Positions 3,955 to 35,064 of a stretch of 37,500 nt of DNA are shown here, piece by piece. The stretch comes from Neocallimastix lanati (nom. inval.) (lineage: Eukaryota > Neocallimastigomycota > Neocallimastigomycetes > Neocallimastigales > Neocallimastigaceae): positions 605,001 through 642,500 of the forward strand of contig JACVTC010000069.1 in NCBI GenBank assembly GCA_016946835.1, given 5' to 3'. Under the pieces are notes generated by a model. It saw only the letters and a list, made by a program, of their open reading frames with translations. It was not told the origin of the DNA and did not search any database. Numbering within the stretch: the first letter of the stretch is position 1; every line of letters begins with the position of its first letter. The position numbers and the translations under genes are program-made.

Positions 3955-4671
3955 ATGTAGATAGAAAATAATGTAAAAAGTAATATTTCGTAATCACCAA
4001 TCATGCGTGATGAAGAGTTTGAGGTTGCTGAAAATTCAGAAATAGTTATTTCTATTGGAGTTTCAACTAATGTTGTTATTCTTAATAGGTATATTTATGG
4101 AAAATATGATTGCTTCTGTTTAAGTGGGTTAATTAATTCTAAAACTTTAACTTTTTATTTCCTTTAGCTGCTACTATTTTTTGTATTTGTTAATAATATT
4201 AATGATATGACTAATTATATTTATCATCAATCTGATTGTTATCCATTTTGGTTAATTTTTGTTGGTTCAACAACTTTAAATTGGGCTCCAATTTTATGGT
4301 TCTAAGCTTATTGTTTAGACCTTATTTCAAAAATCCATTCATCAAAATTAATATCTTCTGTTATTATTTTAACGGCAATTATTTTTAGTAATATTTCTTG
4401 TAATATTCTGTTTTAATAGATAATACATTTTAGTGTGACAATTCAATAAAAGAATCGTTTAAGAAAGAAAGTTTTCAATTTCGTTGATTCTAATATAAGG
4501 CATAGTTCTGGCAATGAGAGTAATAATGCTAGTATATATCATTATATGAGTATTGTTAAAACTCTGGAATTAAATGCATATGTTTCGAATATTAAACGAG
4601 AAATTTATAATGAGAATGTTAAAAGGGAAACATATAATTCAAATTGTAGTTATGATAACATAAATATATAA
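3955..4671 (+). pseudogene. Decayed member of the seven-transmembrane tandem family
   Basis: This copy aligns over most of its length with the intact genes at 6029, 9490 and 15232. The ancestral ATG is at 3955, but codon 2 is TAG where paralogs have TAT, and codon 13 is TAA. A one-base loss near 4138-4145 shifts the frame. In the TM3 region the Leu-Gln pair of WLQAY has become TTC TAA. Homology stops after the TM4 region (about 4415) and resumes about 20 bp later in the second-exon tail (about 4441-4671). TM5-TM7, the exon-1 end and the intron are therefore missing, which suggests one internal deletion. The tail still resembles that of the 6029 gene (HSSGN, SNASI, RETY). Several independent disabling changes show it is long dead. 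Confidence 0.9.
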
Positions 4672-6028
4672 TTTTATTATTTTGTAAAATATATATATAT
4701 ATTTTACAAAAAAATAGATTTATATATTTTTTAAAATTTGCTATTAGTTCAAATACACAAAGAAATTATTTCTATGAATACTAATATTACTATAATATTA
4801 ATTAATAGTCTATTTATTTAAAATAATGATTAGATAAATATATAATATATATGAAAAATAAAATTTTGAAATAAAGAATATTAATATGTATTTTCTTTAT
4901 AATAAATAATAATAAAAAAATAAATAAAAAAAAAAAAAGACTTTATTATAAAGTCTTTTTTTTATTTAATTGATTAATTTTTTTTTTTATAAAAAATTTA
5001 TAAAAAGTTAATTTAATGTATTTTTTATTAAACTATATATATAAATTAATAAAAATATAGTCAATAATAAAAAATCATAGTTTTAATTATAATCTTAACA
5101 TTTAATAATTTATGTAATAATTTATTTATATTATGAATATAAATATTTTTTTTAGAAATATTTTTTATATAATAGTATTTCTGTTTCAAAAGATATAATG
5201 AACTAGAAAAAATAATTAAAAAAATTATATTATTTTAATTATAAATATTAATTTATTTTAATAAATCTTGTTAAGTATCATAAATTAAATGTTTGTAATT
5301 GTCTTTAGCGATAATATAATTTAAATTTTATATGTTATATTATTTATTTTTTTAATTAATTTTTCAATATATATTATAATAATTAATTATTATATGACTC
5401 TAGAAAAAAAAAAATTAATAAGCACTTTATTTTACCTTAAAATCACAATATAGAATTTTATTAAGGTTCTTATTAAATAAAAGAAATGTTTATATAAATA
5501 TTAATTAATAATAATAATATTGGTTGTAGGTATAAATATCATTAAATTAAATTTAATAAAATTTATTATAAATATATAAAACCACAATTTCTATGATATA
5601 TTTAATATATAAAAATGATTACCAAATCATAGAAAAGTATTTTTATTTTTAATATATAAATTAAAAAAAAAAAAAAAAAAATTGAAAAAAAATTGAAACA
5701 AAACTTATAATAAATTCTAAAAAATAATAAATTTAGAATATGGTATTAATTATTAATTAAAATTAATTAAAACAGTAAATTTTAAAATTCTATTATATGC
5801 TAATATATATAATATTAATTAACAATTTTATATATAAATAGAACTTTTTTTTCGAAAAATGTTTATTTTTTGTTAATTTGATTTTATTTTATAATTAATA
5901 TATATATATATTTACAAATAATTAATTATAGTTTTTAAATATATATATATAATTTAGTTTTAAAATTTTAAAAATCTTATTAAACAAAATATATTATAAT
6001 AATTAATATTGTAATAAAAATATATAAA
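4672..6028. other. AT-rich spacer between the pseudogene and the first intact 7TM gene
   Basis: No gene is visible. The clearest structure is a perfect hairpin at 4932-4963, aaaaaaagactttat facing ataaagtcttttttt; its A-run/T-run ends make it look like a bidirectional terminator, though this is not an established signal in fungi. The rest is short A/T repeats, including an A run at 5664-5680. Confidence 0.6.
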
Positions 6029-7281
6029 ATGTATATAAAATCTAATACCATTGATAAATTTTCTGAATCACTCGTTAGACGTGATGAAGAATTAAATACG
6101 ATTGATGATGTCGTTAATAATGAAAATACTACTATGTTAGTTGCTACAAGAATATCAACTATTATTGTAATTATTAGTTGGTATATTTATGGAAAATATG
6201 CTTACTTTTGTTTAAGAGGATTAATTAAATATAAGAACTATAACTTTTTATTTCCTTTAGCTGCTACTTTATTTGCATTTGTTAATAATACTAATGATAT
6301 TGCTAATTATATTTATCATCAATCGGATTGTTATCCATTTTGGGTAATTTTTGTTGGTTCAGCAACTTTAAATTGGGCTCCAATTTCATGGTTACAAGCT
6401 TATCGTTTAGCCCTTATTTCAAAAATTTATTTATCCAGTTTATTATATTTTATAATCACAAGTATGGCAATTATTTTAAGTAGTATTTATTGTACATATT
6501 ATTTCTTAAATTTATCACTTTTCGATCATGCTAAATCTGATACTCTAGGATGTGGTGTTACAAATCCAGGTACATGGACTCCATATATTATGGTATCGGA
6601 TATTGCTGATTCCGTTTTTTCTTTAGCTTCAATTTGTATTATTGTTTTCAAATCTATTAATCACTTAAAAGAATTAAATACTAGAAATGAAAAATTAAAT
6701 GATTTAGTTGGACAAGGTATTATTGAATTATTTATTATTGCACTTGCTAAAATCATTTTATATCCATTAATTCATTACACAAGTAAAGTTCCAGGATTAG
6801 ATGTATTTTGGGATATTTTATCCATGATTGTCATTATTTGTGCCTATAAATTAGTTAATTTCCCATATGAACATGTATGTATTATAAAAATTATTTATAC
6901 AATAATAATTTATAATAATTATTTTTTTTTTAAAAAAAAAAATATTTTATAATTATTAGATAAGATTCAGTCACCATTTCATATTAATATATTTTTACTA
7001 ACTAATATTAATTATTCATATTTTTTTATATTTATTATATATAACAGTTAGATAATTCCAAGAAAGGATTTAGTAATTTAAGAAAGAGTATTTTCAATTT
7101 CATTGATACTAATATTGGTCACAGTTCGGGTAATTACAGTAGTAATGCTAGTATTAATAATGCCAAATATATTAAAACTCCAGATTTAGAAGAGAATAGA
7201 AGTAATTATGCAAGAGAAACTTATATTAATCCACCGTGTAGTAGTTATAACAGAATTTCTAATAATTATAGTAGAAATTAA
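6029..7281 (+). CDS. Seven-transmembrane receptor-like protein, array copy 1 (2 exons)
   Basis: Exons 6029-6874 and 7048-7281 join in phase 0 across a 173-nt GTATGT..ACAG intron, giving 359 residues. The open frame read past the exon-1 end is intron read-through. Hydrophobic segments sit at about 38-58, 72-95, 103-126, 139-161, 185-208, 230-250 and 258-276. Basic residues concentrate in the loops that would be cytoplasmic (RGLIKYK, and the 209-229 loop). Cys101 at the start of TM3 and Cys175 in the TM4-TM5 loop sit where many GPCRs form their conserved disulfide. TM3 ends in WLQAYRL and TM7 ends in NFPY, loosely like DRY and NPxxY. Exon 2 encodes a hydrophilic Ser/Asn/Tyr-rich tail of 77 residues. 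I do not recognise a named family. A membrane receptor is an inference from topology; a transporter or a lineage-specific membrane protein remains possible. Confidence 0.85.
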
Positions 7282-7561
7282 AAATTAAATCCTAATTCTA
7301 ATTACAATGCAAATTAGAATATTAACCAATTTTAATAATTATAGTGTAAATAGTCTTTTAATTGAAAAAAAAAAAAAGTGAAGTAGATTTTAATTATAAT
7401 TCAATTATATATAAAACTATATATAATATTTAATATTTTTTAAAATCTATTACACTTTTTTAATTCAATTATATATAATATTTAATTTTTTTAAGTATTA
7501 AATATGTTGTATAAATAGTTAAAAAAATAAAATTAAAAATACTAAATATTATATTATTAAT

Positions 7562-7679
7562 AATATTAAAAATTAAAAAAATTATTTATATATAATTTTA
7601 ATTGTATATTATAATTATAAAAGATTAATAGAAATATATTTATTACATGTATCTAAATATCACATTTATTAAAATAATA
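7562..7679. repeat. Direct repeat (left copy) flanking a GC-richer relic
   Basis: This stretch of about 118 bp matches 8246-8359 with only scattered differences. A shared core is ttataattataaaagattaa, followed by a shared ttattacatgtat. The two copies bracket the GC-richer segment 7755-8203, with a spacing of about 685 bp. They could be remnants of terminal repeats, or a local duplication into which the segment was inserted. Confidence 0.75.
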
Positions 7680-7754
7680 AAAAAAAAATTTTTTTTTATT
7701 TATTAGTAAAACAAAGGATAGAATTAATATTACATAATTTTTACATTACTATAT

Positions 7755-8203
7755 TACTTTTCAGTCTAAATAATTTTTTACTATTTTTTTTAGACTGGAA
7801 TTAACAAGAGGGGAAGATAATAGGGATTCCAGTCTCTCCCTTAAACATATCAAACTCTCATTGGATTCTTTGCTATACCGTTTTGATGTCAACGTGGACC
7901 AATTTGTAAAAAAAGGCTAATATTAAAGACATTTCCTATTTGCCTTTTTAAACTATAGGCTTCTTTTTAGTGACCTCTTGAATTATCATCGAGGGTGGTA
8001 CAACTACATTAACACTCTCATAGATCAAGTGCTCTCTTCACTAGCAATTATATAGTCTATCCACAGGAATACTTAACATGATATGTGAATATCAACTTCA
8101 TTTACAGGGAAAAATACCTTGGGAGCATGAAAATCATCCCATATTAATTCTAGAGGTTTTCGCAGGATCGATTCTAGAATCCTTTTGTGTATTAGTCGAA
8201 TAA
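7755..8203. mobile_element. GC-richer decayed segment, probably a transposable-element relic
   Basis: This patch is clearly less AT-rich than everything around it, with sharp borders. It holds no intact ORF, but short open blocks remain on the plus strand. One, 7826-7906, reads IPVSPLNISNSHWILCYTV and then stops after about 27 codons; the PxN..NxHW pattern resembles the His region of Ulp1/C48 cysteine proteases, which are often carried by DNA transposons. A second block, about 8046-8201, stays open for about 52 codons. Nested inverted repeats lie at its left end: agtctaaa/tttagact, and agactggaat/attccagtct at 7793-7802 and 7826-7835. The protease match rests on one short motif and is weak. 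Confidence 0.4.
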
Positions 8204-8245
8204 AAAAAAAAATAAAAATATAATTCTCTAAATTATATTAATTAT

Positions 8246-8359
8246 AATATTCAAAATTAAAAATAATTTATATATATTTTAATTTTATATTATAATTATA
8301 AAAGATTAATAAGAAAGTATTTATTACATGTATTTAAATATCATTTATTAAATTAATAA
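8246..8359. repeat. Direct repeat (right copy) flanking a GC-richer relic
   Basis: This is the mate of 7562-7679. Most differences are single bases or one-base indels, so the duplication is fairly young by the standards of this spacer. Confidence 0.75.
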
Positions 8360-9396
8360 AAAAATGTGAAAGTGGTTTCTTGAGTTCATATTTAATTATT
8401 TTATAATATATTAATATTTAATAAATGATAATACGATATTCAAAACATTAAAATTAATATTCTTATTTATAATAAAATAATATATATTCTATTATTTAAA
8501 AAATATATATTTATGTAATATTATAAAAAATTATTTTTTTATCAAAGAGAATAAATTAAAAAAATATATATATCAATTATTTTAATCAAAATTTAAATAA
8601 AAAGATAATAAACTTTTATTAATTCTTTTTTATTTTATTATTTTTCTTTTTTAAATTTAAAAATAAAAAAATAATAATAACAATAATAAAATAATTGATT
8701 ATAAATTCAAAATGAAGATTTTTTTTTTTTTAATTAATATATAAATTTCTTAAAAATTTTTAATTCAGAAATTTATATTAATTTAAAATAATATATATTA
8801 CAATAATTTTTAATTAATTTGTATTATTTTATATATTTCCAATATTATTTGCAATTCTTAAATTATGAAAAAAAAAATAATAATATATAAAAAATGATAT
8901 TAAATAATTTATTAACCAAAAAAAAAAAGTAAAAATTCATTATAAATTAAATTAACCAATACCAAAAATTACATATTTAAATATTTACTATTATTTATTC
9001 CTAATGATTATATAGTATAAATTAATTATTATATCTATTTTATTTATAGAATTTCTAAAAAAAGAATATATATATATATTAAAAAATATAAAAAATATGT
9101 ATAATATTATTATATTGCTATCCTATTAAATTAAGAATTAAAAAATTAATATATTTTCTAAATTTTAAATATTACTTGTATTTAGAGGTCATTTCATTCA
9201 AAACTTTATATTAATGTAAAAAAATCTCATATTTCATTTTTATTTATTTTTTTAATAAATACTATGAAATAAAGTTCATTCTTGGATTAAAAAATAATTA
9301 ATTGTATAGATCATTACAATTAAAAAAAAAAAAAATAATAATAAAAAAAACAAAATTATATATAAATAATTATATAAATACTTTATATATTATTAT

Positions 9397-9427
<31 letters not shown>

Positions 9428-9489
9428 TACTAAATTTATTAAAAAGTTTTGTAATTTTTGATAATTCTATTTTTAAAAACTATACAAAA
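8360..9489. other. AT-rich spacer upstream of 7TM copy 2
   Basis: I see no gene or clear signal, only A/T microsatellites. A run of about 23 A (9405-9427) ends about 60 bp before the start codon at 9490, as is common for genes in this window. A 5' UTR and promoter for copy 2 must lie here but cannot be delimited by eye. Confidence 0.6.
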
Positions 9490-10843
9490 ATGTATATAAA
9501 ATCTAATACCATTGAAAACTTTTCTGAATCACTCGTTAGACGTAATGAAGAATTAAATACGATTGATGATGTCGTTAATGAAAATACTACAAAATTAGTT
9601 GCTACAAGAATATCAACTATTATTGTAATTATTAGTTGGTATATTTATGGAAAATATGCTTACTTCTGTTTAAGAGGATTAATTAAATATAAGAACTATA
9701 ACTTTTTATTTCCTTTAGCTGCTACTTTATTTGCATTTGTTAATAATACTAATGATATTGTTAATTATATTTATCATCAATCGGATTGTTATCCATTTTG
9801 GGTAATTTTTGTTATTTCAGCATCTTTAAATTGGGCTCCAATTTCATGGTTACAAGCTTATCGTTTAGCCCTTATTTCAAAAATTTATTTATCAAATTTA
9901 TTATTCCATATAATCACAAGTATGGCAATTATTTTAAGTGGTATTTATTGTACATTTTATTTCTTAAATTTATCACTTTTCGATCATGCTAAATCTGATA
10001 CTCTAGGATGTGGTGTTACAAATCCAGGTACATGGACTCCATATATTATGGTATCGGATATTATTGATTCTGTTTTCTCTTTAACATCAATTTCTATTAT
10101 TGTTTTCAAATCTATTAATCACTTAAAAGAATTAAATACTAGAAATGAAAAATTAAATGATTTAGTTGGACAAGGTATTATTGAATTATTTATTATTGCA
10201 CTTGCTAAAATCATTTTATATCCATTAATTCATTACACAAGTAAAGTTCCAGGATTAGATGTATTTTGGGATATTTTATCTATGATTGTTATTATTTGTG
10301 CTTATAAATTAGTTAATTTCCCATATGAAAATGTATGTATTTTTTTTTTTTTTTTTTTTATAACTGAATATTATAAAAAAAAAAATTATTAAAAAAGCAA
10401 TTTATTGTAAAAATTATTTATAATTATTACTTAATTTTTATAATCAAAAAAAATTAATTTTTTCCTTAATTAATTTTTTCCTTATTTTATATAATTTTTA
10501 TAATTTATAGTTAGAAAATTCTAAGAAATTAGATAATAGTTTAAGAAGGGTTATTTTTAAATTTATAGAAACAAAAATACCATATATCTCTAGTAGTAAA
10601 AGTAATAGTGTAACCGTTAGTAGTGGAAGTATTTGTAGCCCTAAGAATATTAAAACCTCAGTTTTAGAAAATAATAATAATCATAATTCAAGAGATATTT
10701 ATCAAAATCCTCAAAATTATAATTTAAATAAAATATCTTCTAATTTACCAAATGGAACATCTACTAATTCATTAACTAATACATATAACTTTTCAAGTAT
10801 AATAAATGACTTTAATAAAAATAGTCATGACAGTTTTTCATAA
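9490..10843 (+). CDS. Seven-transmembrane receptor-like protein, array copy 2 (2 exons)
   Basis: Exons 9490-10332 and 10511-10843 join in phase 0 over a 178-nt GTATGT..TATAG intron, giving 391 residues. Exon 1 (281 residues) is about 94% identical to copy 1 by eye, with the same seven membrane segments, the TM3/ECL2 cysteine pair and the TM7 NFPY ending. One Asn codon near residue 31 is missing. Differences from copy 1 cluster in the N terminus, TM3 (VGSAT to VISAS), TM4 and TM5. Exon 2 encodes a 110-residue Ser/Asn-rich tail that keeps only a few anchors of copy 1's tail (SLRRVIFKFIET, KNIKT) and is otherwise different. The intron starts with a long T run. Function is unknown; it shares the receptor-like inference of its neighbours. 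Confidence 0.85.
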
Positions 10844-11330
10844 TTTTAATATTAAAATATATACTAAATCAATGCATACCAATGTTTATGAAATTAATTG
10901 AATATAAGAATTAAAATAATCATCATATTAAAAAAATAGATTTTAAATCAAATTAATAGAATATTATAATTAAAATAATCATTTAATTAAAAATATAAAT
11001 CTTAAAATCAACAATGTAGTTATAGAAATTAATTTTAACTAAGTAAATATCTATTTGTTATTTGAATTAATAGTTATATTTACTTATATGTTTGCTAATA
11101 ATTATATAATTATTAATAATTATAGTATAATCATTTATTATTAGTTAGATATTTGCTAGTAGCTAGATTTTTTTAAGAGTTTAAAGATTTACTAAAACCA
11201 TACATACCGAATTTAGTGATATCAACTAAATGTATGAATTAAAATTAATTCAACTAATTTAAATTTCAATTTAGTAATTTAGTCAGATTTTTACTTTTAG
11301 TTTGATATTTTTTAATGATTTTATAATAAA

Positions 11331-11640
11331 GTTTTAATAATAAATATAAATAATTTTTATAATTAAGTTTTAATAATAAATATTAATGATTTCATAATTA
11401 TATTTTAATTAATGATTTTATAAATACACTGTAATATTTAATATTACAATTTCAACATTAAAAATATTTAATATTAATGATTTAATAATTAAACTGCAAT
11501 ATTAAAATATTAAATATTTTATAATTAAACTGTAATATTAAATATTTTAAAGGTTGAAATTGTAAATATTAAATATTCATGATTTTATAATTAAATTGTA
11601 ATATTAAATATTTTTAATGTTAAAACGTATATAAAAATAT
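11331..11640. repeat. Degenerate tandem repeats of a TTTTATAATTAAA..AATATTAAATATT unit
   Basis: Variants of the phrase (gattttataattaaa)(ctgtaatattaaatattt) recur at least four times with variable spacing. Two copies of an inverted phrase, gtaatatttaatattacaatttcaacattaaa and aaggttgaaattgtaaatattaa (11431-11461 and 11550-11573), face each other. The same unit reappears at 12121-12180 on the other side of the GC-richer segment. Confidence 0.6.
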
Positions 11641-12215
11641 TTTTATAATATTATAATATATAAAAATTAATTTTATTATAAAAAAAAATAATTTAATCAT
11701 AAATAAAATGTTTTTTTTTTTTTTTTTATGAAAATTATTATTTTAATTGAAAATAATTACTTCACTTTTTAATCGCTTGTCTGGTTCTTCAACCTTAACT
11801 TAAATCAGTGCCTCAATGTATAAATTAATTTAGACAAAAAAAACCCAAAGTATGTTGAGTTGCATTAACAATGCTAAATACCAATGGTATATCGATTCCT
11901 GCCCTAAAGATTACATCTGCTTGGCTGAATATAAGAACCGATGCTGGAATTATATGGATGAAAGAGAATGGTAAAAAAAATAAAAGTGAGCGAGTGTGAG
12001 TCCAGTGACAACTTTATCATCGAATATTCTAACGGCTTTATCCAGTCACCCTTCTGCTAATAAAAATTAAATGTGTAAAAGCAATAGCAGCAAGACCGAA
12101 AACAACTTAGATGGTGCATAATATTAAATATTAATGATTTTATAATTAAACTTTAATATTAAAAATATTTAATATTAAATTATATAATTATAAAAAATAA
12201 TTTAATTATAAAACG

Positions 12216-12266
<51 letters not shown>

Positions 12267-12405
12267 ATTACTTTAATTGAAAATAATTTTTAATATTGAA
12301 AGTATATAAAAATATTTTTATAATAATATAATTATAAAAAATAATTTAATTATAAAACGAAAAAAAAAAAAAAAAAAAAATTATTACTTTAATTGAAAAT
12401 AATTA
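11629..12405. repeat. Three copies of a repeat interrupted by a GC-richer insert and poly(A)
   Basis: A unit with the phrases gtatataaaaatatttttat, ataatttaattataaaacga, an A or T run, and actttaattgaaaataatt occurs at about 11629-11758, 12171-12291 (partial) and 12299-12403. The first copy is separated from the others by the GC-richer segment 11760-12120. The second includes an uninterrupted run of about 48 A (12216-12263). Confidence 0.65.
11760..12120. pseudogene. GC-richer relic with broken coding-like blocks, identity unknown
   Basis: Base composition rises sharply here and falls back at 12120. On the plus strand, an ATG at 11852 opens a 40-codon frame to a TAA at 11972-11974, with four Cys and four Trp (CPKDYICLAEYKNRCW). 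On the minus strand, two adjacent blocks in different frames read LDKAVRIFDDKVVTGLTLA (about 12039-11983) and, over about 40 codons, GIDIPLVFSIVNATQHTLGF (about 11951-11831). Two consecutive open blocks with one frame change favour a decayed minus-strand gene or element, but I cannot name the family. It is flanked by copies of a local repeat, which suggests it was inserted into that repeat. Confidence 0.35.
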
Positions 12406-12764
12406 ATTCAATCTTTATTTTTTTTTTAAAGTGTATCAATTATTTTTTTTCATTAAATAATTTTTTATATAATTTTAAAAGTTTATAAATTGTTTTTTTT
12501 TTAAAAAAGTATGATTATAAATGCATTTTATATTTTTTATATGATTTCATTTGTATCTTATTTTATACAATATTATATATTATATAATTCTATTTGTTTA
12601 AACTGTTACTTTAAAATAAGAAATTCCAATTTTTGTAATATTTTTTTACGTTGTTTTGTTTTTACTTTTTATTAAAAAATTTTATAAAGTTAATATTTAA
12701 GAAAATCTTAAATCATTTTATTCAATTAATAATAATAAAATTTAAAATTAATCATTGATATAAA

Positions 12765-12824
12765 TGGATTTAGAAAATAGTTTAGATATTCCATAAAAAT
12801 TGGATTTAGAAAATAGTTTAGATA
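12765..12824. repeat. 24-bp direct repeat, period 36
   Basis: The sequence tggatttagaaaatagttta plus gata occurs at 12765-12788 and again at 12801-12824. The first copy follows an A to make an ATG that reads MDLENSLDIP and stops, too short to call a gene. Confidence 0.75.
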
Positions 12825-13763
12825 AAAAATACGTCTGTTTGAGTATCAGTAAAATATTCTTATAAGAAAAAAAATTCTTTTTTATGGTTATGAATGTTTT
12901 ACAACAAATAAATAAATTTTTCACTTTAAATTCATTTTAATATTTAAGACATTTTTATTTTTAGTTTTAATTTAAAATTGGATAAATTTTTCCTTTAAAA
13001 AAAAAATTTATGCAAGTAATTTATTTGAATTTACCCAAAAAGAAAAATTTTATATAAATATTATTTTAATATTATTTCATATTAACATTCATTTCATATT
13101 AAGATTTGATTAAATAAAAAAAAAAAAAAAATAGTTTTGTACAAATATAATAAAACTTTAAATTTAATAATGAATCAAGTTTAAATATAAATAATTGTAT
13201 TTTTATATTCTAAATTTTATTTCCTATATTCTATATTAAAATATTTTTATATTCATAATATAACATTTAGTAACAATATTAATTTCACTTTATTTTTGAA
13301 AATTCATAAAAATTATGAATTATTAATTAATTTGATTATTTAAACTATATTATTAAAAATATATATATATATTATATATATATATATTTTAATATATATT
13401 TAATTATATAAAACATTTTTATTAAAAATTATTTATCATGTTCTTAAAGCATAAGATTCTAATTCATTTAAAAATATAAAAAAATAAATGGATAAACAAT
13501 TATAACTATTTTTATTATAATTATTTATTAATGTTTTTGGTTATGAATGTTTTACAGCAAATAAATAAGTTGTTTCACTTTAAATTTATTTTAATTTTTA
13601 AAACCTTTTTATTTTTAGTTTTAATTAAAAATTGGATAAATTTTTCCTGTAAAAAAGAATTTATGCAAGTAATTTATTTGAATTTACCCAAAAAGTAATA
13701 ACTTTATATAAATATTATTTATTAGACTTTATTTTTGAAAATTCATAAAAATTATGAATTATT

Positions 13764-14548
13764 GTTAGAAATAAAGTTTAATATTATTAAATAATAAAGT
13801 AAAATAAAATAAATAATTTAAATGGGAGAGTTGCATTTCCCCAAGTTGCATTTTCCCAAGTTGCTTTTCGCCAGGTTGCATTTCGACAAGTAAAGTATTG
13901 ATATAAATAAATGAATAAATAAATAAATATTAATTCAAAATATATTTTTTTAAAATTGTTTTTATGCGATATTAATAATATTTAATTTTATTTATTGATT
14001 TATTTATTTATTTAATAATTTTCAATCTGGCGAAATGCAACTTGGCGAATTGCAATTTGGCGAAATGCCCCACACCCAATTTAAATATATTTAATATTAG
14101 TGATAACTGTCCTAAAATTATGTATATAATAATTATTGATGCACGTGATATACATGAATATAATGTGGCACAAATGATGAAATGTTAAATACATAAAATG
14201 CTCACTGTAATATTTACATAAGAATAGAGGTTTAATTCCTAATAAATAAAAATAAATAAACGACATTAAAATTTATTAATCATAAATTTAAGTGTGTTAA
14301 CAATTAGTTTTATATATTAATTAATATTAGTATATTAATAATAATGTAATAGTATAGTATATAATGTGGCGTATAGCAATAAAAGAAATACGTTTATGTA
14401 ATGTAACACTATATTATAACTTATATTAATACATGTACTTTAATTAAAAAAATAATTTTAATAATATCATTTTTAATATAATTGTTGTTAAATTAAATAA
14501 AGGAATTATTAAAGAATAAAATTGAAATTGATCAATTTAGTAATAAAA
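13764..14548. mobile_element. Insertion of about 785 bp, defined by the empty site in the sister copy
   Basis: Copy 1 of the tandem duplication runs straight through the corresponding point near 13323. In copy 2 the flanks meet this insertion, with aattatt on both sides (13757-13763 and 14549-14555), a possible 7-bp target duplication in low-complexity DNA. The insert starts gttagaaataaag. It contains no credible ORF; the open frame at 14081-14266 has no supporting features. A younger TIR element sits inside it. A solo LTR or a non-autonomous element is possible; the family is not recognised. Confidence 0.5.
13824..14077. mobile_element. Non-autonomous TIR element (MITE) with 9-bp target duplication and 15-bp iterons
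   Basis: Terminal inverted repeats of 51 bp (13824-13874 and 14027-14077) start GGG and end CCC and match at roughly 80%. They are flanked by a perfect 9-bp direct repeat, aatttaaat (13815-13823 and 14078-14086), the target duplication. The ends are built from 15-bp units: gttgcatttccccaa and variants four times at 13830-13889, and the opposite orientation, ttggcgaaatgcaac and variants, three times at 14027-14071. The interior is ATTT-type simple sequence with no ORF. A 9-bp duplication is typical of Mutator-like elements; that class is an inference from duplication length only. Confidence 0.8.
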
Positions 14549-14755
14549 AATTATTAATTTGATTATTTAAACTATATTATTAAAAAAATATATATTATAT
14601 ATATATATATATTTTAATATATATTTAATTATATAAAGAATTTTTATTAAAAATTATTTATCATATTCTTAAAGCATAAGATTCTAATTCATTTTGAAAA
14701 TATAAAAAAAATAAATGGATAACTATTTTTATTATAATTGTTTATTAATTTTTTA

Positions 14756-15231
14756 AATTTTTCGATGATATAAAATTTTTTTGTTAATAATCTAGTTATA
14801 TTAACAACAATAATAGTAAAAACGATTATAATTCTAATAAAATAATTAATTTATTGTAATAAATAAAAATGATCATTAAAATAATCTTTCTTTTTTAATT
14901 TATATGTTTATATAAATTTATGAAAATAATTTAAGTCATGAATCAAAAAAAACATTAAATAAAATTTAGAGAGGATAAAAATAAAATTTTTAATTTAAAA
15001 ATATTTATTCATTTTAATATATTGAATATATTAAATATTAAATATTATATTAAAAAAAAAAATTTTTTAAAATTAATTTGCTTTTTTTTTTTTTTTTTAT
15101 TATAAAAATAAATAATTTCAATTTGATTTTTTTTTTTTTTTTTTTTTTTTTTGGTATTATTTTCTGATATAGATTATTTTTGATCTTTTCTTTTTTCTTT
15201 TAAAAAGTTTATTACAACAGAAAAATTATAA
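14756..15231. other. AT-rich spacer upstream of 7TM copy 3
   Basis: No gene is seen. T runs at 15079-15098 and 15127-15152 and a pyrimidine-rich stretch up to about 15200 lie within 150 bp of the start codon at 15232, so this probably includes the promoter and 5' UTR. Confidence 0.6.
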
Positions 15232-16538
15232 ATGTATATAAATGAAAATAAAGTTAATAATTATTCAGAATCATTAAATAAAGATGATGATATGAAAAAT
15301 GGTGATGGTATTACTGATAATAATACTCTATTAATGGCTACTAGAATATCAACTATTATTGTTATTTTAAGTTGGTATATTTATGGAAAATATGCTTACT
15401 TCTGTTTAAAAGGATTAATAAAATACAAAAATTTAAATTTTTTATTTCCTTTAACGGCTTCATTATTTGCTTTTGCAAATAATAGTAATGATATTGTAAA
15501 TTATATATATCACCAATCTGATTGTTATAAATTTTGGTTAATTTTTGAAATTTCAGCTACATTAAATTGGGCACCAATTTCATGGTTACAAGCTTATCGT
15601 TTAATTCTTATTTCTAAAATTTATTTACCAAAAGTTCCTGCTATAATAATTACTATTTTTGCTATTATTTTTAGTTGTATTTATTGTACTTTTTACTTTT
15701 TAAATTTATCACTTTTTGATTACACGATGTCTGATGATATAGGATGCTCAGTTACTAATCCTGGTACATGGACAATATATTTAATGATTTTTGATATTAT
15801 TGATTCAGTTTTTTCAATGACAACCATTTGTATTATAATTATTATTTCTTTAATTAAATTAAAAGGATTACGTACTGGAAGTGATAGATTAAATAATTTG
15901 GTTGAGCAAGGTATTATCGAATTAATTATTATAGCAACTTCAAAACTTATCATATATCCTATAATTCGTACTAGTAGTTCTATTCCAGGGTTTGATATAT
16001 TTTGGGATATTTTATCAGTAATTGTAATTGTCAATGCCTTTAATTTAGTTAATTTTCCATATAAACATGTAGGCATAATCTTAAAATACACTATTAAATA
16101 ATGATTTTTTTTAAAAAAAAAAAAAAAAATATTATAATTTATTTATTTATTTATTTATTTATTTATTATTTATTTATTTTTTTATTTATTTATTTATTTA
16201 TTTATTTTTTATTTATTTATTTTTTTATTTATTTATTTTTTTTTTAAAAAAAAAAAAAATAGTCTAATGACATAAAAGGAAATGTGAAAAAAAGGAATAA
16301 ATATAATTTTTTTAATTCTGAATTGAGTTACTGTTCAAGTGATTTATGTGACAGTAATAATGATGGTAATAATAAAGAAAAAAACCTTACATCAAATGAT
16401 TCTAATAAATACAAATTAAATATAATAATAGATAAAGATTCCTTTCAAAACCAAAGCGTTAGTGGTACAGCTACTTTAAGTTGCAGTAAAAATAGCAACA
16501 AAAATGATAATAACCTAAAAAGACATTCATATATATAA
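15232..16538 (+). CDS. Seven-transmembrane receptor-like protein, array copy 3 (2 exons)
   Basis: Exons 15232-16068 and 16263-16538 join in phase 0 over a 194-nt GTAGGC..ATAG intron, giving 370 residues. An apparent GTG-initiated frame at 16284 is the body of exon 2, not a separate gene. Exon 1 aligns without doubt to copies 1 and 2 (RISTIIVI.SWYIYGKYAYF, NWAPISWLQAYRL, VTNPGTWT, NLVNFPY). It is clearly more divergent, mainly in the N terminus, TM4, TM5 and TM6. The Cys pair at the TM3 start and in the TM4-TM5 loop is kept. The 91-residue tail (CSSDLCDSNNDGNN, SVSGTATLSCSKN) shares no obvious sequence with the other tails beyond being rich in Ser, Asn and Lys. It is the oldest branch of the array that is still intact. 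Function is unknown. Confidence 0.85.
16139..16245. repeat. (ATTT)n microsatellite inside the copy-3 intron
   Basis: About 107 bp of ATTT tetranucleotide repeat with a few interruptions fills most of the intron between 16069 and 16262. It accounts for the intron being slightly longer than those of copies 1 and 2. Confidence 0.9.
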
Positions 16539-18419: not shown

Positions 18420-20453
18420 TTATTTACAAGAAATTGTTTTTTCATTGAATAAAATACGATAGTAGCAGATTTTTTCTTTTATTTCTTCATCAGACATACA
18501 AATTTGATGGTTACGAGCATTCAATAAATATATAACACTTTCGACAAATGAATCATCCAATTTTTCTACTTCTCCAGGGAGTTCAGAATATAAAGAACTA
18601 TCTATAAGAATTTCTTTTAAATGGGGTAATGTCCATAGGAAATCAGAAAGTTTATTTAACTCTTTATTATTTCGAATATCTATTTTTTCCAAGTTTTCTA
18701 AATTGGCAAGTGCAGAATTAATTTCAGTCAAGTGATTACCACTCACATCTAACACTTTTAAATTTTTTAATTGGAATATTGAGGTTGGGATTTCCGTTAA
18801 TTTCAAATTTTTCAAGTTCAATTCATCTACTTCAGAATTGAGAAAATTCAAATGTTTTAAACGCCATATCTCTTTTGGTAATTCCGTTAGTTGATTATTA
18901 CCAAGATCCAATACAGTTAAATTGGTTAAATTTCCTATTTCTTTTGGTAATCCTTTTAATTGATTACCGTAAAGATTTAGGCTATTTAAATTGATCAAAT
19001 TTCCTATTTCTTTTGGTAATTCAATTATTCGATTATAGTTAAGATACAATTCAGTTAAATTGGTTAACTTTCCAATTACTTTTGGTAACTCCGTTAATTG
19101 ATTATTGTAAAGATCCAGTTCAGTTAAATTTTTCAAATTTTCTATTTCTTTCGGTAATTCAGTTAATTGATTACAACCAAGACATAATTCTGTTAAATTG
19201 ATAAAATTTAAAACTACTTTAGGTAATTCCGTTAATTTATTACTGCAAAGATGTAGTTTAGTTAAACCAGTTAAATTTACAATTTCTTCTGGTAATTCCG
19301 TTAATTGATTAAAACTGATATTCAATTCTGTTAACTTTGTTAAATTTCCTATTTCTTTTGGTAATATCGATAATTGAGTATCTAAAAGATTCAATACATT
19401 TAAGTTTGTTAAATTTACAATTTCTTTTGGAAATTCAATTAATTTATTACCATAAAGACTCAAGCTAGTTAAATTGGTTAAATTTCCTATTTCTTTCGGT
19501 ATTTCGGTTAATTGATTATTCTTAAGATTCAATTCATTTAAATTTTTTAATTTTCCCATTTCTTTTGGTAATTCCGTTAACTGATTAAAACTAATATTCA
19601 ACTTCATAAACTTTGTTAAATTTACAATTTCCAGTGGTAACTCAGTTATTTCATTATTTTCTAAATTAAATTCAATTAATTTGGTTAAATTTCCTATTTC
19701 TTTTGGTAATTCCATTATTAGATTATTTTGAAGATCTAATTTAGTTAAATTGGCCAAATTTCCTATTTCTTTTGGTAATTCAGTTAATTGATTATAACTA
19801 ATATTTAATTCTGTTAACTTTGTTAAATTTACAATTTCTTTTGGTAATTCCGTTAATTGATTAACACTAATATTCAATTCAATTAAATTTACTAAATTTC
19901 CAATTTCCATTGGTAACTCAGTTATTTCATTACTTTCCAAATTTAATACAGTTAAATTGGTTAAATTTCCTATTTCTTTTGGTAATTCCGTTAATTGATT
20001 AACACTAATATTCAATTCAATTAAATTTACTAAATTTCTAATTTCCATTGGTAACTCAGTTATTTCATTACTTTTAAAACTTAATACAGTTAAATTGGTT
20101 AAATTTCCTATTTCTTTTGGTATTTCCGTTATTTGATTACCTTTCAGATTCAAACTTGTTAATTTTTTTAAATTGTAAACACAACTTGGTATTTTCGATA
20201 GTTTTGCACCTGAAAAACTTATTTCTGAAATATTATTTGTTCTTTTTAATAAATTCGAAATGTCATTGATAATGGTTTCATTACCGAAAACATTTCCTTT
20301 AAATTTTAATGTTTTCCATTTTGAAATTTCATTGTCTGGAATATTTCCCAGTTCCTTTAATTTATCTAAATCAATTTCAACATTTTCTTCATTATACTCT
20401 AGTTTTAACAGATTATTTTGAGTATCAATACTATCTTTTATTTCATTAACCAT
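18420..20453 (-). CDS. Leucine-rich-repeat protein of 677 residues, cytosolic type
   Basis: This is a single-exon gene. There is no signal peptide or membrane segment. Residues 1-75 are a unique acidic region, about 76-98 a first LRR, and 99-535 hold 19 contiguous repeats of exactly 23 residues (consensus LTELNLxxNQLTELPKEIGNLTN). Three or four degenerate repeats reach about 640, followed by a helical, basic-acidic C terminus of about 37 residues. The 23-residue LPxEIGNLxxL pattern is that of Shoc2/PIRL-like and Leptospira-like intracellular LRR proteins, which act as protein-binding scaffolds. No kinase, GTPase or F-box domain is attached. Repeats 2-6 include a recent 138-bp internal duplication. 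It stands alone between plus-strand neighbours. The binding partner cannot be inferred. Confidence 0.9.
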   Translation of the reverse strand: MVNEIKDSIDTQNNLLKLEYNEENVEIDLDKLKELGNIPDNEISKWKTLKFKGNVFGNETIINDISNLLKRTNNISEISFSGAKLSKIPSCVYNLKKLTSLNLKGNQITEIPKEIGNLTNLTVLSFKSNEITELPMEIRNLVNLIELNISVNQLTELPKEIGNLTNLTVLNLESNEITELPMEIGNLVNLIELNISVNQLTELPKEIVNLTKLTELNISYNQLTELPKEIGNLANLTKLDLQNNLIMELPKEIGNLTKLIEFNLENNEITELPLEIVNLTKFMKLNISFNQLTELPKEMGKLKNLNELNLKNNQLTEIPKEIGNLTNLTSLSLYGNKLIEFPKEIVNLTNLNVLNLLDTQLSILPKEIGNLTKLTELNISFNQLTELPEEIVNLTGLTKLHLCSNKLTELPKVVLNFINLTELCLGCNQLTELPKEIENLKNLTELDLYNNQLTELPKVIGKLTNLTELYLNYNRIIELPKEIGNLINLNSLNLYGNQLKGLPKEIGNLTNLTVLDLGNNQLTELPKEIWRLKHLNFLNSEVDELNLKNLKLTEIPTSIFQLKNLKVLDVSGNHLTEINSALANLENLEKIDIRNNKELNKLSDFLWTLPHLKEILIDSSLYSELPGEVEKLDDSFVESVIYLLNARNHQICMSDEEIKEKICYYRILFNEKTISCK

Positions 20454-25675: not shown

Positions 25676-25782
25676 ATTAATAGATAAAAATATAGAAAAA
25701 TATATAAAAAATAAAATAAAATAGATATATTTTTATAATAAATAAATAAAAATTAAAAATAAAAAAAAAAATTAAAAAAAAA

Positions 25783-26874
25783 ATGAAATCTACTTTATTA
25801 ATTAAATTATTTACAATCTTTGGTATTGTTGCTAGTACTTTTGCAAGTCCAATTTCAACAAATTCAACAGTTACCTTGAAAAAGCGCTCCAATATTAATT
25901 ATTATAAAGATTTAAAGCTTGATGTTTATTATAGCGAAAGCGAAGGCAAACATAGTGTTTTCAAAAGAAAGCCAGTTGTAGTTTATATCCATGGTGGTGG
26001 TTGGGTATCAGGTACAAAAAATGAATTATTAAAATAAAAATTAAAATCTCTATACAAATATAAAATATAAAAAATTTTTTTTTTTAATTTTGATATATAT
26101 ATATTCTTATACATATAAAAAAAAAAAAAAAAATTTTTTTTTTAAAGTAATTAAATATTAAAAATAATTATTAAAAATATTAATGAATATATAGGTAGTA
26201 AGGAAAAAAATAGCAAGATTGGAGAATACCTTAGTGAACAAGGTTATGTTGCCGTTTTACCAAGCTATCATCTCTATCCCAATGCTACTTCTATTGATAC
26301 TATGGTAGATGAAATCCATCATGCTATTACATGGACTTATAAAAATATTTATGATTATAATGGAAATAATTTAAGAATGTCAATCAGTGGTCAATCAGCT
26401 GGTGCTCATTTAATTTCTTTAACCTTAACTAAATCTGCTCTTGGTATTGAAAATAATGGCAAACCATTAGAAAAATTGCCTACTTTTAAGCATGCTTTAC
26501 TCTTAAACGGACCATATGATATGAGAAAATTCCAAAGACCAGAAATGGATGATACCTACAAAAACTTATTCTACAATAAGAAGAACACTAGTGCTCAACC
26601 AATTCTTGAAGGTTACGAAGACAAATCTATTATGAGACTTGGTACCAGACAAATTACATTCTTAGAATGTACTGAAGATATTGTTGTTCCATACGGAAAT
26701 GCAGAACCAATGATTGAACAAGTTAAAAGAACGGTTAGATCCACTAAAGTTGATCACATTGTTATTGAAGGTGGTGATCATAATAAAATTAATCATGGTA
26801 TTCGTGATGGTGATGAAGAAGCCAAAAAGATATTTATTGAATTAATTAGAAAATATAATAAACCTTTTAATTAA
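25783..26874 (+). CDS. Secreted alpha/beta-hydrolase esterase, HGGG type (2 exons)
   Basis: Exons 25783-26011 and 26195-26874 join across a 183-nt GT..AG intron, giving 302 residues. The frame that runs past exon 1 is intron read-through, and the frame starting at 26302 is internal to exon 2. A signal peptide (about 1-21, hydrophobic core LIKLFTIFGIVASTFA) is followed by a dibasic KKR at 33-35, a possible Kex2-type processing site. The hydrolase core has the oxyanion-hole motif HGGG (70-73), the nucleophile elbow GQSAG (142-146, Ser144), a likely Asp238 (DIVVP) and His272 (GGDHN). This matches the carboxylesterase/acetyl-esterase and feruloyl- or isoprenylcysteine-methylesterase-like group. 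Given the signal peptide and likely host, hydrolysis of esters on plant cell-wall polysaccharides is a reasonable guess, but no dockerin or CBM is attached. The substrate is not settled by sequence. Confidence 0.9.
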
Positions 26875-28340: not shown

Positions 28341-28895
28341 TTAATGATGAGCATGAGCTAAACATTCTTCAGATTGTAAGTAGGCTAATCCATTCTTGTA
28401 CCAATTTAAGTAAGTAGATTGTGTATCTTTTCTGTATTTAGCTGCAGTAATAGTATTCTTAATGGATTCAATGGTAAGAGAAACACATTCGTGGCAGTCA
28501 CATGAAGCTTTAATAGCATTCTTGAAATCATCTTCAGTAAGCTTCTTATCAGTAATTAAAACATCACCAAAGGCACAGTATTTACCATCTGGGTTCTTGT
28601 GACAGTATAAATTATTATCAGCATGTCTTTCATTAACAAATTCTTCTAAATAAGTTTTTTGTTGTTCAGTAATATTTTGACATTGAGTAATATATTTTAA
28701 TGGACTGTTGAAGAAGTTTTGACATTTTTCAGAAAGAGAATCAGCACAAGCTTGAACTCTGTCTTCACCAACTTCAGCGGTACAAGCAGAAGTAACACTA
28801 AAAACTTCTTTTTGACATTGATCAAAAGTATTAACTGGAGCAGCAATAGTGGAAGCAGCAGCGAATAAAGCGACGATAGCAGTAGAGAATTTCAT
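28341..28895 (-). CDS. Secreted cysteine-rich protein, twin A
   Basis: This intronless gene encodes 184 residues. A typical fungal signal peptide (MKFSTAIVALFAAASTIAA, cleavage predicted after about residue 19) leads a mature protein of about 165 residues with 11 cysteines (27, 38, 50, 58, 72, 98, 107, 132, 134, 137, 178), an odd number. A CDCHEC cluster sits at 132-137 and a His-rich end (HAHH) at the C terminus. There is a sequon at N74 (NIT). I do not recognise the family; size and cysteines suggest an extracellular, disulfide-stabilised protein. The C-rich codon choice in the start region differs from the AT-rich neighbours and hints at strong expression. Its twin at 30416-30970 differs at two residues (T16A, T158K). 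The A-rich leader directly before the ATG is the usual style here. Confidence 0.85.
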   Translation of the reverse strand: MKFSTAIVALFAAASTIAAPVNTFDQCQKEVFSVTSACTAEVGEDRVQACADSLSEKCQNFFNSPLKYITQCQNITEQQKTYLEEFVNERHADNNLYCHKNPDGKYCAFGDVLITDKKLTEDDFKNAIKASCDCHECVSLTIESIKNTITAAKYRKDTQSTYLNWYKNGLAYLQSEECLAHAHH

Positions 28896-30415: not shown

Positions 30416-30970
30416 TTAATGATGAGCATGAGCTAAACATTCTTCAGATTGTAAGTAGGCTAATCCATTCTTGTACCAATTTAAGTAAGTAGATTGTTTA
30501 TCTTTTCTGTATTTAGCTGCAGTAATAGTATTCTTAATGGATTCAATGGTAAGAGAAACACATTCATGGCAGTCACATGAAGCTTTAATAGCATTCTTGA
30601 AATCATCTTCAGTAAGCTTCTTATCAGTAATTAAAACATCACCAAAGGCACAGTATTTACCATCTGGGTTCTTGTGACAGTATAAATTATTATCAGCATG
30701 TCTTTCATTAACAAATTCTTCTAAATAAGTTTTTTGTTGTTCAGTAATATTTTGACATTGAGTAATATATTTTAATGGACTGTTGAAGAAGTTTTGACAT
30801 TTTTCAGAAAGAGAATCAGCACAAGCTTGAACTCTGTCTTCACCAACTTCAGCGGTACAAGCAGAAGTAACACTAAAAACTTCTTTTTGACATTGATCAA
30901 AAGTATTAACTGGAGCAGCAATTGCGGAAGCAGCAGCGAATAAAGCGACGATAGCAGTAGAGAATTTCAT
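30416..30970 (-). CDS. Secreted cysteine-rich protein, twin B
   Basis: This is the second copy of the 184-residue secreted protein. By eye there are only four nucleotide differences in 555 from twin A: two change residues (T16A in the signal peptide, T158K in the mature chain) and two are silent. All 11 cysteines and the CDCHEC and HAHH motifs are the same. Near-identity extends only about 15-20 bp past the stop codon and about 6-8 bp before the start. Beyond that the flanks differ, although scattered promoter elements are shared. The two genes point the same way, about 1.5 kb apart. Function is unknown. Confidence 0.85.
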   Translation of the reverse strand: MKFSTAIVALFAAASAIAAPVNTFDQCQKEVFSVTSACTAEVGEDRVQACADSLSEKCQNFFNSPLKYITQCQNITEQQKTYLEEFVNERHADNNLYCHKNPDGKYCAFGDVLITDKKLTEDDFKNAIKASCDCHECVSLTIESIKNTITAAKYRKDKQSTYLNWYKNGLAYLQSEECLAHAHH

Positions 30971-34545: not shown

Positions 34546-35064
34546 TTATTTAGCTTTACGAATAGTAGCATGCTTAATGTTAACAATAAATTTACAATTT
34601 TCATTTGTTAAAAATACGAATTTTTTAGCTTCAATAGAAAAATTCACAATTTTATCCTTTTCTCTTTCGTAGTAGGCAACAAAATGTGTCTTATTAAGCT
34701 TCTTACTATCAAAGCTAGGAGCATATAAATCAGCAGTTTTAAAAGTAGTATTCATGTTGATTTCACAGTCATTTTTAATTTTAACATCAAGAATAAGTTG
34801 ATGCTTTATTTTATCTTGGAAATCACAGATAATTTTTTTATTTTCGAAATTATATTTACAGTTTTCTAATTCAAAATCACCATTAACAGCACCAATAATA
34901 TTATTATTATCATCATAAATATATTCAGGTCTTGTAATCATAAGAGCAAATCCATTTCCATTTTCAAAATTTACAGTCGAAGGTAAATTAATTTCACTTT
35001 TATTTGCAGCAACAAAGGGAATAGTGATTGTGGAAAGTAATGAGATAAGATTAAAGAATTTCAT
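34546..35064 (-). CDS. Small secreted protein of unknown family
   Basis: This intronless gene encodes 172 residues. A signal peptide (about 1-20, LISLLSTITIPFVAA) leads a mature protein of about 152 residues with four cysteines (69, 80, 100, 157) that could form two disulfides. N-glycosylation sequons are at N21, N105, N124 and N141. Alternating hydrophobic and polar stretches (LILDVKIK, FVFLTNENCKFIVNIKHA) suggest a beta-rich fold. There is no similarity by eye to the cysteine-rich twins beyond being secreted and in the same orientation. An A-rich leader precedes the ATG, and a TATA-like sequence lies about 140 bp upstream. I do not recognise the family. Confidence 0.8.
   Translation of the reverse strand: MKFFNLISLLSTITIPFVAANKSEINLPSTVNFENGNGFALMITRPEYIYDDNNNIIGAVNGDFELENCKYNFENKKIICDFQDKIKHQLILDVKIKNDCEINMNTTFKTADLYAPSFDSKKLNKTHFVAYYEREKDKIVNFSIEAKKFVFLTNENCKFIVNIKHATIRKAK

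Follow-up and report, generated by a model that had tools for sequence, protein, structure and literature searches.

The window analysed here, the whole stretch of 37,500 nucleotides, carries part of a gene family that probably encodes receptors of the GPCR fold unrecognised by Pfam, and the best reading is that of a new family, distinct from the numerous class C receptors that the same genome encodes. The original prediction of a tandem array of receptor-like seven-transmembrane (7TM) genes stood as regards the seven helices, the extracellular N terminus, the receptor-like character and the amplification, and has to be narrowed in two respects, as the family is only partly tandem and Ste2, which had been set aside, is the solved fold with the top Z after re-alignment.

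Four copies lie on the forward strand of the window, three of them intact (B, C and D) and one dead (A), as had been predicted. Exon 1 of each intact copy, an ORF of the automatic listing, encodes the N terminus and all seven TM helices, and is followed by a phase-0 GT..AG intron predicted from the DNA letters and by a separate exon, defined by the predicted splice, for a Ser/Asn-rich variable cytoplasmic tail. Copy B comprises exon 1 at 6029..6874 (282 aa), a 173-base intron at 6875..7047 (GTATGT..ACAG) and exon 2 at 7048..7281 (77 aa); copy C, exon 1 at 9490..10332 (281 aa), a 178-base intron at 10333..10510 (donor GTATGT) and exon 2 at 10511..10843 (110 aa); and copy D, exon 1 at 15232..16068 (279 aa), a putative 194-base intron at 16069..16262 and exon 2 at 16263..16538 (91 aa), giving predicted spliced proteins of 359, 391 and 370 aa, respectively. 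Splicing is least sure in D because its donor is the unusual GTAGGC rather than the GTATGT of B and C, and the unspliced D protein would end after 289 aa. In copy A (3955..4669), the TM1-TM4 region holds six in-frame stops (three TAG and three TAA within its match to query residues 1-162) and TM4 joins exon-2-like tail sequence directly, with TM5-7 and the intron absent. Of the four copies to which one common layout had been ascribed, only B, C and D show it, with the seven helices in exon 1, the phase-0 intron behind them and the tail on its own exon. The window also encodes a BD-FAE-type esterase, and Rfam and tRNA scans of it gave no matches. This esterase, the base composition and size of the genome and its expanded class C receptors suggest that the host is a gut fungus.

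At least 15 intact members were found on nine contigs of the same genome (199 Mb, AT-rich), together with two decayed copies and one fragment. The family query returned 18 genome matches at E 4.4e-5 or better, and dN/dS lay between 0.13 and 0.48 in all 32 exon 1 comparisons; on both counts, the family matches are far above the chance level. Amplification within this genome was thus supported, while the claim of a tandem expansion applies to part of the family only. The window cluster had no DNA in common with the C743 cluster when the window was compared with the 7.2 kb that follow the C743 copies downstream. As judged by eye, the intron of three members (L010, L012 and L014) is in phase 1 and sits several codons further on, and L006 has no intron at that site. 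Pattern matches to the family in viral contigs (48) and in GTDB genomes (19) yielded not a single confirmed case.

Exon 1 of B and C is nearly identical (dS 0.06), whereas their tails (dS 0.77) and flanks have diverged. Gene conversion has apparently kept the exon 1 core of the two copies alike, a claim drawn from this dS contrast and from the fall in identity where the exon ends, rather than from the exon 2 tree. That tree was set aside as evidence on conversion, since B+C was not rejected there (p-AU 0.22) and L003 and L004 also grouped together (support 72/81, unstarred); in the exon 1 tree, B+L003 was rejected (p-AU 0.024). Upstream and intron identities carry little weight, because the DNA is AT-rich and other pairs reach up to 67% by the same alignment method (C-L003 intron, D-L004 upstream). 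Such conversion would make B and C a natural case of a single sensor core with differing flanks and tails.

Pfam was searched with the three exon 1 proteins and then with the 15 members, and no receptor model matched any of the 15 (E<=10), in agreement with the claim that the family could not be placed among known fungal receptors. Stray matches to DUF350, Imm_superinfect, DUF4077, CMV_UL34, NapE and DUF6442, each in one to three members, with a best E-value of 0.02 and no receptor family among them, were taken as chance. Sequence searches of the PDB, run from a single protein and from a 14-row profile, gave no match at E<=10, and hhalign gave no signal against Ste2, two Dicty_CAR loci and the class C loci of the genome (11 of 12 fetched, L057 being left out for its stops).

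Two members, the first of them copy C, were modelled with AlphaFold (pLDDT 82 and 83), and each model predicts seven membrane helices and a hairpin in extracellular loop 2 (ECL2); the two models are not independent, because their alignments (15 and 13 rows) are shallow, overlapping paralogue sets from one genome. Hydropathy likewise gave seven positive peaks, of which six exceed the preset line of 1.1, since TM3 peaks at 1.05 (TM2, 1.15). Loop charge by the positive-inside rule predicts an extracellular N terminus for all 15 members, so that the proposed topology of seven helices with the N terminus outside was recovered. The structure search suggested with the original prediction listed 50 PDB matches per model in Foldseek, all of them GPCRs and mostly class A, with modest E-values for both models. 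Among the re-aligned matches, Ste2 (7ad3) had the top structural Z for each of the two family models, and behind it came a designed GPCR-like bundle and microbial rhodopsins, ion pumps among them. Because rhodopsins and a designed bundle come next in Z and the E-values are modest, the fold alone does not imply signalling. A confident assignment to known transporters or enzymes, named beforehand as the result that would speak against a receptor, was found neither in Pfam with the 15 members nor among the listed Foldseek matches.

Sequence conservation adds receptor-like features to this fold. C100 at the top of TM3 and C174, within strand 173-177 of the modelled ECL2 hairpin, are invariant in all 15 members and are placed as in receptors in which a bond staples ECL2 to TM3, the bond itself being putative here. 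Another invariant residue is R125, which closes TM3 on the cytoplasmic side, 25-26 residues after the cysteine (a constant spacing of 25 was dropped, as L017 has 26). An invariant polar cluster occupies the outer half of the bundle, comprising N85, N86 and D89 (TM2), N114 (TM3), S150, Y153 and Y157 (TM4), D190 and D193 (TM5), K240 and Y244 (TM6), and D261 and S264 (TM7). The cytoplasmic helix halves were not more conserved than the outer halves (mean entropy 1.38 vs 1.32, 13 non-redundant members), R125 lies outside any DRY motif and the end of TM7 shows no NPxxY. The N terminus measures 37-45 residues before TM1 in five members (B, C, D, L003 and L004), and may be longer in L007, whose open frame extends upstream by about 60 more codons, none of them a Met; an N-terminal sequon is missing in five of the 15, fuller N termini included.

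Several other explanations were weighed against this evidence. A seven-helix transporter, channel or proton pathway would account for four Asp and one Lys (D89, D190, D193, D261 and K240) being invariant inside the helices, which is unusual for a receptor core; so many invariant buried charges fit an ion or proton pathway too, and light-driven ion pumps with the microbial rhodopsin fold stand out among the entries ranked after Ste2 in the re-aligned lists of both models. We nevertheless consider it improbable, as all 50 listed Foldseek matches per model are GPCRs, with SWEET, TRIC and other transporters not among them, a hairpin in ECL2 whose cysteine faces TM3 is characteristic of receptors, and the window copies carry long variable tails. 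A light sensor or pump of the microbial rhodopsin type is scarcely credible: the TM7 Lys that binds retinal in such proteins has no conserved counterpart among 13 members, the sole mid-helix Lys column (273) is mixed K/N/R/A and lies near the cytoplasmic end, and Bac_rhodopsin matched none of the 15. Descent from the gut-fungal class C receptors by loss of the large extracellular domain is a quite improbable origin.

The closest contender, which falls within the reading of a GPCR-fold family, is a divergent branch of Ste2 (class D1) outside Ascomycota that has lost the hallmarks or had yet to gain them; we regard it as possible but unlikely. Ste2 had been set aside in the original prediction; PF02116 matched none of the 15 members (E<=10), and Ste2 was the solved fold with the top Z after re-alignment. 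PF02116 was without a match in the genome as well, in a search in which no control matched either, and hhalign to yeast Ste2 scored 14.6, against a mean of 13.2 and a maximum of 18.5 for 30 Ste2 shuffles. TM1 GxxxG occurs in none of 13 non-redundant members, and of the 302 residues of Ste2 that were compared, two are cysteines, located in the TM1 GxxxG and in TM6, whereas the family has its invariant TM3/ECL2 pair. The structural likeness is itself qualified: in one model, re-aligned 7qa8 (16.9) and 7qbc (16.6) do not exceed the designed bundle (17.0); 7ad3 ranks 15 by E-value in one model and is absent from the 50 listed matches of the other; some aligned N-terminal residues have low pLDDT; and the comparison covers two models, both of family members. 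There is a limited chance that the family is an undescribed lineage of Ste2 architecture outside Ascomycota, in anaerobic gut and perhaps other zoosporic fungi, with at least 15 genes, converted cores, diverging flanks and tails, and a role in zoospore or mating sensing. Anaerobic gut fungi are not known to have a sexual stage. In the literature, STE2-like receptors are placed in Ascomycota only (PMC12842992), no reliable Ste2 is reported from Chytridiomycota (PMC3251606) and the TM1 GxxxG of Ste2 is described as a dimer motif (PMC9220813).

For a GPCR-fold receptor family, a small polar or charged ligand might bind the buried polar cluster, and the receptors might signal through some of the G-alpha proteins of the genome, in which G-alpha matches are present. 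Regulation would be set by the tail exon and the promoter, and gene conversion would hold the receptor cores of a cluster close to one another as their flanks and tails drift apart, such that paralogues could respond to similar cues yet differ in timing or in desensitisation. Considering the lifestyle, zoospore guidance or substrate sensing would be the likeliest use.

The surveys of gut-fungal and other fungal receptors in PMC5168858, PMC12842992 and PMC3251606 start from InterPro/BLAST annotation, Pfam domains or seed sequences, and this family would escape such a first step because none of its 15 members has a Pfam receptor match. The 2025 survey pooled 141,666 further 7TM proteins in 1,969 clusters and inspected Pfam domains for the ten largest (PMC12842992), so that the family could sit unnamed among those clusters. 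If its members are receptors, at least one multigene family besides class C serves the fungus in sensing its environment.

Compared with known systems, the family resembles the gut-fungal class C GPCRs (7tm_3) in being a large 7TM receptor multigene family of the same genome, and differs in that the class C loci match PF00003 and its own 15 members do not, and in its short N terminus in the members checked, against N-terminal domains of 200-1600 residues reported for gut-fungal class C receptors (PMC5168858). With the Dictyostelium cAMP-receptor-like proteins (class E), 7TM receptors reported also from fungi, it shares neither a PF05462 match (0/15) nor detectable similarity (hhalign probability 0.2% to L062 and L063); these two other loci of the genome carry Dicty_CAR (PF05462) matches. 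Class A receptors, whose hallmarks are a 7tm_1 match and the DRY and NPxxY motifs, are unlike it in all three, yet have in common with it the ECL2 beta hairpin with a cysteine opposite that at the top of TM3 and, 25-26 residues beyond that cysteine, the Arg with which TM3 ends on the cytoplasmic side. Ste2 (PDB 7ad3, 7qa8 and 7qbc) differs in showing no detectable sequence kinship, in its TM1 GxxxG, in the absence of a TM3/ECL2 cysteine pair from the residues examined and in the multigene nature of the present family, and is alike in its seven helices, long cytoplasmic tail and fungal origin, with 7ad3 superposing over nearly the full length.

The window (C654:605001–642500; GC content 10–22% along its length, in an assembly of 199 Mb and 762 contigs) was found to hold three intact receptor-like genes, B, C and D, all on the forward strand. 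Exon 1 of each runs to 279–282 codons and carries the membrane segments; it is followed, after TM7, by a phase-0 intron (173–194 bases) and then by a tail exon of 77–110 residues. A fourth copy, A (3955–4669, + strand), is decayed, with six stops within its match and the TM1–TM4 part fused straight to tail-like sequence. These gene models bear out the original prediction of three intact genes and a dead one, both in coordinates and in the exon 1, intron and tail exon layout. Two stretches between receptor copies (7780–8190 and 11760–12120) appeared G+C-richer by eye and lack long frames; they may be relics of mobile or repeated DNA. Repeats of short GTTGCATTT-like motifs were seen at 13830–14070, with inverted counterparts about 200 bases off by eye. 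Elsewhere, the window encodes a 677-aa leucine-rich-repeat protein with many similar repeats (18420–20453, − strand), a secreted-looking BD-FAE-type protein in two exon pieces (25750–26874, + strand; longer piece above the Pfam cut-off, shorter below), likely a plant-cell-wall esterase, and a secreted-looking 172-aa protein (34546–35064, − strand) with no Pfam match at E≤0.001. Twin 184-aa cysteine-rich proteins with an apparent signal peptide (28341–28895 and 30416–30970, − strand) differ by two residues by eye, and the first, which alone was scanned, had no Pfam match.

Whole-genome searches with three members agreed on 15 intact exon 1 frames, spread over nine contigs: three on the window's contig, C654, two each on C743, C753, C38 and C52, and one each on C8, C24, C246 and C334. 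The first query additionally hit copy A together with two sequences on C223, one a decayed copy (C223:96109) and the other a weak fragment (C223:221478); of these three, the second query recovered only the decayed C223 copy and the third this copy and A. As introns are disregarded in the search and scoring is confined to the top candidates, the family counts are lower bounds. Three starred groups were resolved in the protein tree: group I, the window type, with eight members; group II (L011, L015, L017 and L019), in which TM7 ends in KPKLN or KPRLN; and group III (L010, L012 and L014), whose Asp-rich tail, by eye, has just 8–11 residues behind a phase-1 intron. The phase-0 intron was seen by eye in all readable group I and II members except L006; the L015 tail is masked. 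In L006 (group I; C8:259447–260256), the conserved intron is cleanly missing and the tail runs on in frame. In L007 (C753:217848–218606), about 60 codons ahead of the match are free of stops and encode four cysteines and no Met; a 5′ exon and a more extended N-terminal domain may therefore exist in this gene. On both C38 and C52, a single group II gene and a single group III gene sit about 11 kb from each other, an arrangement that resembles duplication of a mixed pair. Some 28 kb separate the C38 pair (230028–241823) from a G-alpha match (269599–273100), a proximity that could be chance, given 19 G-alpha contigs.

Exon 1 is under purifying selection (dN/dS 0.13–0.48, 32 comparisons), which is weaker on exon 2 (0.49–0.82, three comparisons among B, C and D). 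B and C share 96.4% identity in exon 1 (dS 0.062, 281 codons) versus 47% in the 200 bases upstream, 52% in the intron and 64% in exon 2 (dS 0.77, 77 codons), identity falling sharply at the exon 1 borders. In exon 2, B has 70% amino acid identity with L003, on a different contig, versus 40% with C, while B and L003 differ at dS 0.48 in exon 1; their 70% identity upstream and in the intron adds little, since background pairs reach 67%. L003 and L004 resemble the B/C pair (96.9% in exon 1, 63% in exon 2), their similar stretch spanning the intron and reaching the first part of exon 2. Tree tests rejected B+L003 for exon 1 (p-AU 0.024) and did not reject B+C for exon 2 (p 0.22). Because protein constraint cannot hold synonymous sites alike, the near-identity of exon 1 in the B/C and L003/L004 pairs is most simply explained by recent gene conversion acting on the core exon inside each cluster.

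Invariant residues occupy 35 positions in the 13 non-redundant members compared. They include the cysteines C100, at the top of TM3, and C174, on strand two of the ECL2 hairpin, as well as R125, which lies close to the cytoplasmic end of TM3. Also among them are polar residues (N85, N86, D89, N114, S150, Y153, Y157, D190, D193, K240, Y244, D261 and S264) that sit 3–13 positions from the outer ends of TM2–TM7, with helix limits set by hand, and read like a buried polar pocket common to the paralogues. Such a pocket could accommodate a small charged ligand or serve as a site for ions or protons; a transporter or channel is improbable beside a receptor. DRY, NPxxY, a TM1 GxxxG and a conserved TM7 lysine are all absent from the family, and a rhodopsin is scarcely credible. 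No Pfam-A receptor model matched any of the 15 members at E≤10 (exon 1 only, some N-terminally trimmed), and PDB sequence searches gave no matches. Other genes of the genome gave two Dicty_CAR matches and, with 150 of 303 candidates scored, at least 131 class C matches, some of them fragments or below cut-off. Profile comparison with 11 of these class C domains, yeast Ste2 and the two Dicty_CAR loci yielded probabilities of only 0.2–0.3%; by sequence, the family falls in no known one, and descent from class C is quite doubtful. Kinship with Ste2 is a live minority reading, unlikely on balance and contained within the GPCR-type one; the STE2 model found no match in the genome, in a search where no control matched either. 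In the portions available, a 1,357-genome survey listing 17 fungal classes confines STE2-like receptors to Ascomycota (PMC12842992), and an earlier one could not identify Ste2, Ste3 or Git3 reliably in Chytridiomycota (PMC3251606).

We consider it probable that the family comprises receptors of the GPCR type whose ligand site is buried and which signal to some G-alpha proteins. The computations themselves show a fold and a topology, both predicted, along with the conserved core, the selection on it and the copy number in one genome. A ligand would bind the buried site, and coupling would be to some of the genome's G-alpha proteins. Matches to G-alpha number 51 and are spread over 19 contigs, of which 17 have one above cut-off; part may be fragments or other GTPases. 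The receptors might serve zoospore guidance or substrate sensing.

No description of the family was recognised in the portions seen of the open-licence PMC literature, the only literature covered; the single passage on receptors in PMC6712302 deals with lectin-domain proteins of animals, and the candidates newly put forward in the excerpted 1,357-genome survey are DUF6534 proteins of Basidiomycota (PMC12842992). The host is very probably an anaerobic gut fungus of the Neocallimastigomycota, a group whose known traits agree with the composition and size of this genome, the BD-FAE-type esterase of the window and the class C matches. Class C expansion is known from Neocallimastigomycota: as excerpted, a survey of transcripts from three gut fungi, based on InterPro and BLAST annotation, counted 53, 25 and 34 GPCRs, almost all class C, with one or two rhodopsin/Dicty-CAR-like receptors besides (PMC5168858). 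Class C transcripts of Caecomyces churrovis rose in co-culture with M. bryantii on some substrates, according to part of another report (PMC8665504). The class C matches of the present genome, at least 131, compare with 51 reported from N. californiae transcripts in the part seen of the gut-fungal survey (PMC5168858).
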